A stretch of DNA of 64,000 nt from Crateriforma spongiae (lineage in GTDB: Bacteria; Planctomycetota; Planctomycetia; Pirellulales; Pirellulaceae): NCBI RefSeq assembly GCF_012290005.1, contig NZ_JAAXMS010000003.1:310001-374000 (forward strand). Direction: 5' to 3'. Under the pieces are notes generated by a model. That model was not told the DNA's origin. It was given only the letters and a program-made list of their open reading frames with translations, and did not search any database. Both the position numbers and the translations under genes were made by a program. Numbering within the stretch: position 1 is the first letter of the stretch; the number at the start of each line of letters is the position of its first letter. Below are positions 1 through 3,733 of the stretch, in pieces.

Positions 1-1593
1 CGGAAAATGGTATTCGCCGCGTGTGCTGACACAGCTGCTGGTCTCCGATCCACACATGATCCAATCGGGATGGTTCTCGGTGACTTCCTGGTATCGCATG
101 GGCTTGTAATTCCAGCCCACGACATCGACTTCGGCGGCTAATCCATTCACTTCGGCGCCGGGATAATAGTTGAAGCCGGCTGCGACCGGTCGTGTCGCGT
201 CCTGGTCATGGCAAATCTCAGTCAGGCGTCGGGCCTGTTTCCAGCCGTCTTTTCGCCCTTGCTCTAGGATCTCGTTACCAATGCTCCACATGATCACGCT
301 GGGATGGTTGCGGTCACGAAGGATCATGTCTCGCAAGTCACGCTCGGACCACTCGTCGAAGAATTTGTTGTAACCGTTCTCGACTTTGGCGATTTGCCAC
401 ACGTCAAACGATTCGTCCATCACGACCAACCCCAATTCGTCACAACATTCCAGTTGCTCGGGCGAAGGCGGGTTGTGGCTGGTTCGGATCGCGTTGACCC
501 CCATCGATTGCATGATTTCCAACTGACGCATCGTGGCGCGTCGGTTGACGGCTGCACCGAGTGGACCAAGGTCGTGGTGCAGACAGACGCCTTTGAATTT
601 GACCGATTTGCCGTTCAGGACGAATCCGTTTTCCGCGCTGAAATCGATGGTGCGGATCCCGAATCGCGTTACATAGCGGTCCAGGACTTCCCCGTCGGCC
701 GAAACGATTTTGCTGACCGCGTGATAAAGGTTCGGTTGATTGATGTCCCACAGCTTTGGCTGATCCACGTTCAATTCGGTCGAAACGGTGACCGCCTTCT
801 CTGGTTTCCCTTCGATCGACTGTGTGGACTGGGCGATGGATTGGCCGGTCGCATCCAAGATGGTTGTTTCCAAAGCTCCGGTGCAATTGCCTGCGTCGGT
901 GCATCGTATGCTGGTTTCGATCGCGACAACCGCCTGTTCCGCGACAACCGCCTGTTCCGCGGTGACCGTTGGAGTCGTGATTGATGTGCCCCAGTGATCG
1001 ACGTGCATCGATGACTTGCGATCCAACCAAACGTTCCGATAGATGCCCGCACCGGGGTACCAGCGTGACGACAGGTCTTCCGGGGCAAGGCGAACGGCGA
1101 TGACGTTGGCTTCGTCACCGAAATTCACATGTCCGGTCAAGTCACAGACAAAGCCCATGTAGCCGAACGGTCGTTGACCGACTTTGTGGCCGTTCAACCA
1201 GACTTCCGCGTTGTATATCGCGCCGTCGAATTCGACGCTGATGTGTTTACCGCGGTCGGATTCCGGCAACGTGAACGACTTGCGATACCACCCGATGCCG
1301 TGGAACGGCAGTCCGCCACAGCGGGCGTTGTATTGAATGTCAAACGGGCCTTCGATCGCCCAATCATGTGGAAGGCTTAACTGACGCCATGATGCATCAT
1401 CGTATTGGGCGTTCTGTGCGTTTTCGGCGGCGCCACGATGGAAACGCCAATCGTTGTTGAAACTCTCGCGTCCCATGCGTTGAAGGTTCTCGGCCGAAAC
1501 GATCGACGCCATCAACACCATACATGCGCTCACCAGCAGTGGCAGTCGCCATCGTCGGTAAACACGAAACTGAAATCCGCTCGATTGTCGCAT
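1..1593 (-). CDS. GH2 beta-galactosidase, secreted (3' end outside window)
   Basis: The minus-strand reading starts at ATG 1593, preceded by a GAAGGA ribosome site, and stays open to base 1, so the C-terminus lies beyond the left edge. Residues 1-30 form a signal peptide. A GH2 sugar-binding domain follows (SLPHDWAIEGPF, GWYRKSF), then an immunoglobulin-like domain, then the TIM barrel with GVNAIRTSHNPPS. The expected acid/base is E441 in WSIGNE and the nucleophile is E517 in CGSE. The family hydrolyses terminal beta-galactosides or related beta-glycosides; galactoside as substrate is inferred. Around residues 211-223 an 18-bp tandem duplication (923-958) repeats AEQAVV. With sulfatases and a GH110-like enzyme nearby, a role in galactan breakdown in the periplasm or outside the cell is plausible. 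Confidence 0.9.
   Translation of the reverse strand, partial: MRQSSGFQFRVYRRWRLPLLVSACMVLMASIVSAENLQRMGRESFNNDWRFHRGAAENAQNAQYDDASWRQLSLPHDWAIEGPFDIQYNARCGGLPFHGIGWYRKSFTLPESDRGKHISVEFDGAIYNAEVWLNGHKVGQRPFGYMGFVCDLTGHVNFGDEANVIAVRLAPEDLSSRWYPGAGIYRNVWLDRKSSMHVDHWGTSITTPTVTAEQAVVAEQAVVAIETSIRCTDAGNCTGALETTILDATGQSIAQSTQSIEGKPEKAVTVSTELNVDQPKLWDINQPNLYHAVSKIVSADGEVLDRYVTRFGIRTIDFSAENGFVLNGKSVKFKGVCLHHDLGPLGAAVNRRATMRQLEIMQSMGVNAIRTSHNPPSPEQLECCDELGLVVMDESFDVWQIAKVENGYNKFFDEWSERDLRDMILRDRNHPSVIMWSIGNEILEQGRKDGWKQARRLTEICHDQDATRPVAAGFNYYPGAEVNGLAAEVDVVGWNYKPMRYQEVTENHPDWIMCGSETSSCVSTRGEYHFP
923..958. repeat. 18-bp perfect tandem duplication inside GH2 gene
   Basis: Two identical copies of an 18-bp unit (923-940 and 941-958) lie head to tail and in frame. 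They add six residues (AEQAVV) to what is probably a linker in the beta-sandwich part of the beta-galactosidase. A recent slippage duplication is the simplest reading. Confidence 0.9.
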
Positions 1594-1759: not shown

Positions 1760-2743
1760 TTAGTGATCCGACGGAACGTCACGGAATTGCTGGTGGCAGA
1801 CACGGCAATCGTGTGCGATCTCTTCGATTCTGCGGAGACTCGTCGCGGCGGCGGACCGGTCCAGTGACGCCCGCGTTACCGCTTGCCGGAGCGCTTTCGC
1901 ATTCGCGATGGATCGCTGTAATTGTTCGACAAAGTCATCGCCGAGCGATTCTTGCCGGGCAATGCGGTCGGCTTCGACAAAGGCTTCCATCAACAGCAAT
2001 GCTTGGTGATCTTTGTCGAGGTCAGGATGGTTGGCGGGCGGTTCCCAATCATTCGCGGCGATCCGACGCAGGTGCGACAAGCGTGTTTCCAGGTCGACCA
2101 TCAGTTGGGCCATCGCGGGCACATCAGCAATGCTGGGAAAGGCGACGCCGCTCTGATTCAACACTGCGTCGGACAAGGGATGTGCGTCGGCAACGGATGC
2201 AAACAGTCCGCGATATTGTGGGCCCGTTCCGGCGATGCGAAGTGTCTGGTCGGCCTGGTTTTTGTTGATCAGACCGGCGCCCAAGCAGGCCACTGCGGCG
2301 GCGGCGGGGCTGCGATGTTTGCCGTGATGACAATGAATATAGATGGGGGCCGGCAATTGGTTGACCGCTTGGGCCAATTCCAGCGAACGTTCCGTAGGGA
2401 TGCCGTCATAGCCGTGAGGCAAATGGACGTAACGCAGTCCTTGTCGTTCGGCGGCATCGACGTCGGGCAACGCAGCATCCACGCTGATGACTGTGCGGAT
2501 GCCCAAGGCGGCCAATTCCGCGAACGCTTCGTCGTTTTCGGGCAACCCACCGGAAAACACCCGGTCGTGCAACTGTACTAAGTTGGGAACATAACGCGTG
2601 GGCATCCTCTGTGGACGCGGGACCGACGCGTTTTTCTCAGGCTGGTCGGCAGCACTGTGTGCGATAAGGGTATTGCCGATGAAGATGAACAGCATCACAG
2701 CAGCGATTGCCGCCTTGAATGTTTGCCCCAAAAACATGCCCAT
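1760..2743 (-). CDS. Secreted tyrosine phosphatase-like / cytochrome c'-like fusion
   Basis: Start at ATG 2743; a TTG three bases upstream is less likely. Residues 6-30 are a signal peptide. Residues 48-185 resemble a dual-specificity/tyrosine phosphatase: VFSGGLPENDEAF, then the P-loop HCHHGKHRS with catalytic Cys138 and Arg144 (C-X5-R). The remaining ~140 residues are helical and end with CRVCHQQFRD, a C-x-x-C-H haem site (313-317) close to the C-terminus, as in cytochrome c' (c556) four-helix bundles. The protein is therefore probably exported, carries covalent haem and has a phosphatase-like domain. No signalling partner is visible. It lies 105 bp downstream of the OmpA-like lipoprotein gene on the same strand. 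Both domain calls come from motifs; catalytic activity is not proven. Confidence 0.75.
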   Translation of the reverse strand: MGMFLGQTFKAAIAAVMLFIFIGNTLIAHSAADQPEKNASVPRPQRMPTRYVPNLVQLHDRVFSGGLPENDEAFAELAALGIRTVISVDAALPDVDAAERQGLRYVHLPHGYDGIPTERSLELAQAVNQLPAPIYIHCHHGKHRSPAAAAVACLGAGLINKNQADQTLRIAGTGPQYRGLFASVADAHPLSDAVLNQSGVAFPSIADVPAMAQLMVDLETRLSHLRRIAANDWEPPANHPDLDKDHQALLLMEAFVEADRIARQESLGDDFVEQLQRSIANAKALRQAVTRASLDRSAAATSLRRIEEIAHDCRVCHQQFRDVPSDH

Positions 2744-2848
2744 CAAAGTGTCCCATTGATCCGGTGCCTTACCTAGGTCGCTGGGACTAGCTTAGTCGAT
2801 TTCAGATCGGCGTTCGTGGTTGCGCGAGCGCGAGCGGGTCTGAGATGC

Positions 2849-3733
2849 TTAGAAGGTTTCCGGATAGACGACCAATTCAATCCGACGATTGGCCGCGCGA
2901 CCGGCGGGGGTGTCATTGGATTGCCGTGGATTGTTGGCACCTTGTGCGACGGTGAACAATTGGTGGATCGGCATTCCCGCACGGCGGACCATGAAGTCCA
3001 GTACGGCACCCGACTGTGCGGCGCTTAACTGATGGCTGGTCGCGACATCGCCGCCATAAACTGGCGAATTGTCGGTGTAACCTTCCACGGCGATGCGTTG
3101 TCGTGGGAACACGGTGCGCAGTTGAGCGGCAACGGGATCCAAGATTCCGGCCGCTTGCGGGATCATCTGGCTGGTCCCCGCCCGGAACAACTGATCCGCG
3201 GGCAAGATGATGCGAACCACGTCGCCGTCCGGCTGGACGGCCAAGTTGGGAAGGTTCAGCCGCGATGCTTGCGCGGACAAATTGGTATTCGGCCGAATGG
3301 TCGCGCCGCCACGCATTTGAGTAGACGCTTGAAAACTGCGGACCTGATTTTCCGCCTGGTTCGCAGCCATTCGTGCGGATTCAAACTGGTTGGTGACCTC
3401 GGCAAGCTGCGTGCGTACCAGTCGCAATTCGTCTTTATAGACCTGAGCCTGCTGTTCGCTTTGGGCCAACTGCGTGGTCAGCTGGCGATTGTTATCGTCC
3501 AGCAACTGAACGCGTCGGCTGAGTTCGGCGATCTGGGCCTGCGTGGGATTGTTGGCCACCGCGACGGGTTGCCCCTGCCATGCGGCACCGCCGGGGGTGG
3601 CCAAGTATGGATTTTGTGTACAGCCGGACACGACCGCCGCAATCAGCCAGACGGACAACAGCAGCGCAGCACGCACGCGACCAGGCGAATCCTGGGGGCG
3701 GCGTCGGGCGTTCATGGCAATGGGCGTTGGCAT
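2849..3733 (-). CDS. OmpA-family peptidoglycan-binding lipoprotein
   Basis: 294 residues. A hydrophobic segment ends in the lipobox VVSGC (Cys38), so the mature protein should be lipid-anchored. Residues ~65-135 are a Gln/Glu-rich coiled coil (AELSRRVQLLDDNNRQLTTQLAQSEQQ). The C-terminal ~110 residues match the OmpA/MotB fold, with VEGYTDNSP and NRRIELVVYP, which binds diaminopimelate in peptidoglycan. It probably tethers the outer membrane to the wall. The start could instead be ATG 3715. It is divergent from the gene at 3859, with a shared 125-bp upstream region, and may be co-transcribed with the phosphatase/cytochrome gene downstream. Confidence 0.88.
   Translation of the reverse strand: MPTPIAMNARRRPQDSPGRVRAALLLSVWLIAAVVSGCTQNPYLATPGGAAWQGQPVAVANNPTQAQIAELSRRVQLLDDNNRQLTTQLAQSEQQAQVYKDELRLVRTQLAEVTNQFESARMAANQAENQVRSFQASTQMRGGATIRPNTNLSAQASRLNLPNLAVQPDGDVVRIILPADQLFRAGTSQMIPQAAGILDPVAAQLRTVFPRQRIAVEGYTDNSPVYGGDVATSHQLSAAQSGAVLDFMVRRAGMPIHQLFTVAQGANNPRQSNDTPAGRAANRRIELVVYPETF

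Follow-up and report, generated by a model that had tools for sequence, protein, structure and literature searches.

A conserved pairing of a phosphatase-type domain with a class II cytochrome c-type domain in a predicted exported protein of Planctomycetota

The active-site cysteines of PTPs are known redox targets, and the class II c-type cytochromes (c556 and c') and cytochrome b562 are free-standing proteins. Among described systems, two of the closest to the halves of the protein considered here can be named first. One is TpbA (PA3885), a periplasmic dual-specificity phosphatase of Pseudomonas aeruginosa, for which PMC4409338 gives the P-loop HCKHGNNR and an Asp105 in the general-acid loop. 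The other is NaxLS of the anammox planctomycete Kuenenia, which corresponds to Kusta0087/0088 in the account of PMC11897245. In Crateriforma spongiae, a single gene in the window (the whole stretch of 64,000 nucleotides that was analysed) joins a domain of each kind, and computation establishes a two-domain anatomy, conservation of the catalytic and haem-motif residues, and one clade of fused proteins.

The PTP/DSP and class II cytochrome c-type fusion gene is complete, is supported by homologues, and occupies 1760..2746 on the minus strand. A TTG at 2746 yields 328 residues; an ATG at 2743 (327 residues), taken as the gene's end in a first-pass annotation of the same DNA, and an ATG at 2737 are further start options. 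Residues 1-33 (2648..2746, minus strand) resemble a signal peptide by eye and by hydrophobicity, in keeping with that annotation, which called the protein exported, with one lysine followed by AAIAAVMLFIFIG and then LIAHSAAD; the best 12-residue stretch scores 3.02, against 2.25 in the remainder of the window protein. N-terminal hydrophobicity separates exported proteins poorly here, because of 78 rows that could be tested (three of the 81 aligned rows were too short) 68 exceed the threshold, but so do the mature parts of 44. Lipobox-like motifs are found in 20 of the 78. Judged from its sequence, the window protein is probably exported and extracytoplasmic. It has four cysteines, at 139, 154, 314 and 317, and the interval between C139-x5-R145 (within HCHHGKHRS, 138-146) and C314-R-V-C317-H318 is 175 residues, so that both motifs and their spacing are as first reported. 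Shuffling the letters of the protein produced a CxxCH in 41 of 20,000 trials and both motifs in none of the 20,000. The AlphaFold2 model, built from the window sequence and 65 homologues, is a confident two-domain one (pLDDT 96.2, pTM 0.91), in which four helices come after an alpha/beta PTP domain. Both halves of the window protein match Pfam below the curated cut-offs, and because neither half passes a Pfam cut-off in this protein or in 10 further members scanned, the fusion protein is easily overlooked by Pfam.

The PTP or dual-specificity-phosphatase fold spans residues 53-200, with boundaries set by judgement (2147..2590, minus strand), and is supported by the model, by Foldseek and by VIA alignment, in keeping with the PTP-type domain proposed at the outset. 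Its P-loop, H138-C139-H-H-G-K-H-R145-S146 (2309..2335, minus strand), is of the CX5R form, with Cys139 as the predicted catalytic residue, and C139 and R145 are present in all 81 aligned rows. D114, in GYDGI (2405..2407, minus strand), aligns with TpbA Asp105 and is the candidate general acid; its column holds D in 79 of the 81 rows and N in the other two. C154 is kept in 70 of 81 rows, yet its place in the helix that follows the P-loop, some nine residues from the start, makes a disulfide between Cys139 and Cys154 unlikely. With the whole model as query, Foldseek ranks TpbA first (4r0s_A, E 8.9e-7). VIA alignment of the PTP part places DUSP23 (Z 16.2), TpbA (Z 15.8, a tie) and DUF442 (3gxh, Z 15.3) close together with archaeal PTPs and PFA-DSPs, all at Z 14 to 16. 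The best PTP match of the window protein in Pfam is PF22785, at 20.8 bits against a cut-off of 27 (E 5.7e-4); this family matches 59 of 66 members at E <= 0.01, and none of the 10 further members scanned passes a PTP cut-off. One relative, fused to a transporter (L107, below), does pass that of PF22784, with 28.5 bits against 27. The PTP domain is a divergent branch outside the named Pfam subfamilies.

The class II cytochrome c-type four-helix bundle covers residues 210-328 (1763..2119, minus strand), as drawn from profiles, the model and VIA alignment. Its modelled helices run over residues 211-231, 245-265, 270-291 and 297-321, and the last of these carries, near the C-terminus, the haem-attachment motif C314-R-V-C317-H318 (1793..1807, minus strand), which is present in 81 of 81 rows, is recovered by the profile, and includes the predicted proximal ligand H318. 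PF01322 (Cytochrom_C_2) matches residues 270-322 of the window protein at 15.6 bits against a cut-off of 26.5 (E 0.033), and matches 45 of 66 family members at E <= 0.01, the best at 2.2e-8. Against the PDB, a profile from the 24-row alignment A3 ranks cytochrome c' 3vrc first (E 1.3e-5) and also finds c556 1s05 (E 0.0046) and cb562 chains (from E 9e-4); among the matches too is 6egc, a designed helical bundle (E 0.0021). When the C-terminal model was searched by itself, Foldseek matched it to no PDB entry at E <= 0.001, the top rows being generic helical bundles, and membership of the class II cytochromes consequently rests on sequence profiles. The initial proposal of a cytochrome c'-like domain thus stands as to a class II, four-helix C-terminal domain, with profile searches placing this half in the c'/c556/b562 group and the predicted fold being a four-helix bundle; it finds no support as to a strict c' with an open NO/CO site.

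The reason lies in M216 of helix A (2099..2101, minus strand), which is invariant in 81 of 81 rows and is the predicted distal axial haem ligand by its register with b562 and NaxLS. VIA alignment of the isolated C-terminal domain, used for ligand register only, pairs model positions 10..122 with cb562 1..106 (2bc5, Z 12.6, rmsd 2.7, 98 aligned) and 10..126 with NaxLS chain A 26..132 (6r6m, Z 13.0, rmsd 2.8, 105 aligned); a de novo bundle heads the ranking, and for helical bundles Z values around 13 would not by themselves establish homology. M216 (model 16) then falls on residue 7 of b562 and residue 32 of NaxLS, and H318 (model 118) on residue 102 of b562, a register read from the ends of the aligned ranges and assuming gap-free terminal helices. 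We take Met7 and His102 to be the iron ligands of b562, and Cys32 of NaxLS is presumably an iron ligand as well. Residue numbers suggest that chain A is the NaxLS chain with Cys32, a residue that the titles of PDB entries 6r6n and 6r6o give as mutated, to Gly and to Met. Because the b562 and NaxLS ligand positions both fall on the invariant M216, a six-coordinate, low-spin Met/His haem of the redox-active c556/b562 type is more likely, on this modelled register, than an open, gas-binding c' site.

The alignment on which these counts are based comprises the window protein and 80 GTDB loci, drawn from at least 499 GTDB genomes encoding a relative. Peptide patterns from the PTP half served to find the loci, and those matching the full-length query best were kept, so that CxxCH was no search pattern, yet full-length members were favoured. 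Invariant in all 81 rows are H138, C139, G142, H144, R145, M216, C314, C317, H318 and R322; one row (L055) has the P-loop HCHLGKHR. For structure prediction, alignment A2 retained 66 of the 81 rows, with 15 fragments or similar rows omitted. When 40 genomes were searched, 19 had a match, 17 of them full-length, and both motifs are present in all 17 (the window gene included), with C139, R145, M216 and CxxCH read from the alignment in 17 of 17; D114 is kept in 14 and replaced by N, S and A in L006, L014 and L017, respectively. Twelve members picked from other families of the phylum all have CxxCH and, by eye, the helix-A Met, and among them are the drifted P-loops HCFHGQHR, HCFRGQHR and TCETGRDR. 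Since neither motif is lost among the 81 rows, favoured as these were for full length, the sequences argue that the two functions work together.

The fusion protein is common in Planctomycetota. A full-length profile matches 204 of 392 genomes of the phylum at E <= 1e-5, and among 150 matches listed, 131 (in 130 genomes) reach profile position 318 or beyond. The other 19 listed matches include two with CxxCH (G234 and G413), two cut by contig ends, one that leaves the family near a contig end, and 14 haem-less PTPs, of which 11 are distant (L130-L140) and three are close sisters (L127-L129). In at least 132 of the 392 genomes, accordingly, the homologue is long enough to take in the haem motif, the motif itself having been read in the fetched subset. 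The fusion occurs in records that bear strain names of Rhodopirellula, Stieleria and Botrimarina. Verrucomicrobiota bins account for five of the 80 named loci (L081, L083, L085, L096 and L097), and in a sample of 194 Verrucomicrobiota genomes the sole match at E <= 1e-20 was the centre genome itself; three Verrucomicrobiota sequences in the tree described below adjoin an Isosphaeraceae sequence (96/92). This rarity, together with the place beside Isosphaeraceae, suggests that the Verrucomicrobiota copies came from transfer. A further locus, L079, belongs to a bin that bears the name Abditibacteriales, and may reflect a binning error. Three plasmid records have a match, two of them planctomycete and near full-length, with the annotations "dual specificity protein phosphatase" and "hypothetical protein"; in the third, a Synechocystis plasmid gene with a sulfur transferase annotation matches at 28.8% identity over 36% of the query (E 7e-4).

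A tree of the PTP domain was built from 33 fused and 19 unfused rows chosen by hand, with 200 bootstrap trees, and rooted on the 100/99 branch to the paralogue L021 and its kin. All 33 fused rows form one clade (99/94; 99% of the 200 bootstrap trees), the three haem-less sisters, which have long branches, adjoin it, and the HCxxGxDR forms are more distant. The tree program flags seven long branches (L105, L108, L115, L109, L127, L128 and L129) and warns that L105 and L108 may be joined falsely. Within this chosen sample, the haem domain looks to have been gained once, and not lost. One of the sisters, L129 (G181), is a 318-residue open frame with HCHHGKHR and without a haem motif, which the family profile matches twice.

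Clustering of the ORFs around the 81 loci revealed no conserved operon: the largest neighbour family covers 11 loci but at no set distance, and each neighbour at a near-fixed distance is common to three to five loci. With neighbour families so sparse or scattered, no partner gene can be named, and the neighbourhoods of the 81 loci gave no support to phosphate scavenging, a role entertained in the first-pass annotation. The ORF caller was crude, grouping the target itself in one cluster for 72 of 81 loci, with antisense ORFs winning in at least six others, and weak synteny may therefore be missed. Directly upstream in the window and on the same strand (2849-3733, minus strand) lies, by eye, the gene for an OmpA-like protein whose N-terminus is signal-like. 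Elsewhere in the same genome are two PF01578 cytochrome-assembly matches, and a stand-alone class II cytochrome-like protein of 317 residues (L119 697-1650, plus strand), over the PF01322 cut-off, with CANCHEQYR and an N-terminus that is signal-like by eye.

N-terminal fusions of the whole module are rare. In G402, a NupC-type nucleoside transporter (PF07662, E 9.4e-69) is in frame with the PTP-cytochrome module (L107 915-3272, plus strand), and the same fusion recurs in G676 (71% identity over 14-783 of 786), giving two genomes of one genus. In G308, an exchanger-like membrane protein, of sodium/calcium antiporter type by eye, precedes a module with a divergent PTP (TCETGRDR) and a CTRCH haem domain (L105 2479-4386, minus strand); among 61 genomes of that family searched, G308 included, only G308 has it. 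Pfam further identifies a 3-keto-disaccharide hydrolase, an SGNH/GDSL hydrolase and the PTP-cytochrome in one open frame (L014 1504-3834, minus strand), and an NPCBM domain upstream of the module in L009. Long upstream open frames at L108-L113 look, by eye, like GC-rich read-through and were not accepted as fusions. Transporter fusions in two lineages fit an extracytoplasmic place for the module, given the topology of such transporters, and because the module is fused behind the NupC-type transporter in two genomes and the exchanger-like protein in one, it may also regulate transporters in cis.

The reading that we consider probable, at somewhat better than even, is an extracytoplasmic, TpbA-like dual-specificity cysteine phosphatase whose C-terminal class II cytochrome domain carries a covalent, six-coordinate Met/His haem. 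The two PF01578 matches in the genome speak for this reading; the replacement of D114 in some rows and the lack of a conserved neighbouring gene speak against it. After export, a c-type maturation system would attach haem to C314 and C317, with H318 and M216 ligating the iron; D114 would serve as general acid while Cys139 attacks a phosphomonoester carried by a substrate in the periplasm or at the surface, and the low-spin haem would exchange electrons with periplasmic carriers. In the least certain step, the redox state of the haem would gate the phosphatase, or else the haem would keep Cys139 active in an oxidising compartment. The two domains would then be coupled, as we infer, and it is possible, as a tentative proposal, that electron flow between the Met/His haem and the PTP makes a haem-switched phosphatase, coupling periplasmic redox, and hence respiration, to extracytoplasmic dephosphorylation.

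Other accounts of the same haem-type domain assign the iron differently or dispense with it. A gas sensor would have a five-coordinate c' haem whose distal face is open to NO or CO, with the phosphatase switched when either gas binds. This account draws on the fact that 3vrc, a cytochrome c', is the domain's best PDB sequence match; moreover, a helix-A Met close to the haem does not ligate the iron in some c' proteins, and in certain cytochromes the Met ligand of a ferrous haem can give way to NO. A five-coordinate c' is defined by the lack of a sixth protein ligand, however, and an open pocket needs no invariant Met, so that a Met retained in every row, at the position of the distal ligand in b562 and a NaxLS chain, argues against an open NO/CO site, and we regard such a sensor as unlikely. 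That the CxxCH arose by chance on an unrelated four-helix bundle without haem, for instance one with a metal site, might be argued from the sub-threshold Pfam score of the window protein and from the commonness of the bundle fold, but the motif persists in all 81 rows and in the 12 members from other families, and the family profile matches known class II cytochromes by sequence, which makes this account exceedingly improbable.

The phosphatase half likewise admits other activities on the same fold. If it were a sulfurtransferase- or thiol-type PTP domain of the DUF442/Blh branch, Cys139 would be persulfidated or oxidised and pass electrons to the haem, an arrangement that a haem beside a reactive cysteine would suit as an oxidoreductase, and with which the unusually His-rich P-loop, the tie between DUF442 3gxh and TpbA in structural alignment, the sulfur transferase annotation of the Synechocystis plasmid match, and the weak similarity to TIGR01244 (17.8 bits) and Blh (15.1 bits) are in line. 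The TIGR01244 score is nonetheless far from the cut-off of 85.85, the A2 profile prefers TpbA 2m3v (38.8 bits) over DUF442 3gxg (21.8 bits), and the PTP-like paralogue of the same genome, L021, which we take to be DUF442-like by motif, has the CX4R loop HCKSGKR in place of CX5R and lies with its kin across the branch used as root; this reading is rather unlikely. A pseudophosphatase head, which would bind a phosphorylated or anionic partner and dock an electron-transfer cytochrome, gains from the replacement of D114 in a few members and from the divergent loop TCETGRDR of one fused member, but that loop itself retains the C and R, Cys139 and Arg145 are found in 81 of 81 rows, and we think this very unlikely.

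For the preferred reading, a phosphatase with its own Met/His haem, the wider meaning is that the fusion could make dephosphorylation responsive to redox conditions beyond the cell membrane, and redox control of extracytoplasmic phosphorylation in bacteria becomes testable with one soluble protein. The first-pass annotation knew of no described system with this pairing, and in searches of the open PMC library, judged by title, with subscription papers and preprints outside its scope, we likewise found neither a description of a PTP-haem pairing nor a PTP to which a redox cofactor of its own is covalently bound.

Set beside the known systems, the window protein has the PTP fold in common with TpbA, along with an HC-x-H-G-x-x-R loop, an Asp in the general-acid loop and, probably, an extracytoplasmic location, whereas the TpbA structures are without a haem domain and identity is about 20-22%. 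The P-loop ends in KHR rather than the NNR of TpbA, and GKHR is common to plant PFA-DSP1 (1xri, by alignment). DUF442 and Blh sulfurtransferase-like PTP domains have the fold as well, but the window protein falls far below the TIGR01244 cut-off and the CX4R paralogues differ in loop length. With c556, c' and b562 (engineered as cb562) it shares a four-helix bundle and a near-C-terminal CxxCH followed by Arg, and with b562 the helix-A Met at what we take to be a ligand position; it differs from class II cytochromes in that its haem domain sits behind a phosphatase domain, and from a true cytochrome c' in its predicted sixth ligand. NaxLS is of the same fold class (6r6m) and comes from the same phylum, and, provided that Cys32 belongs to chain A, its distal ligand would occupy the same place on helix A, although that ligand is a Cys and the chain has no phosphatase domain. 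The conserved pairing of the two domains is real, and it amounts to a new variation on kinds already known, not to a kind of its own.
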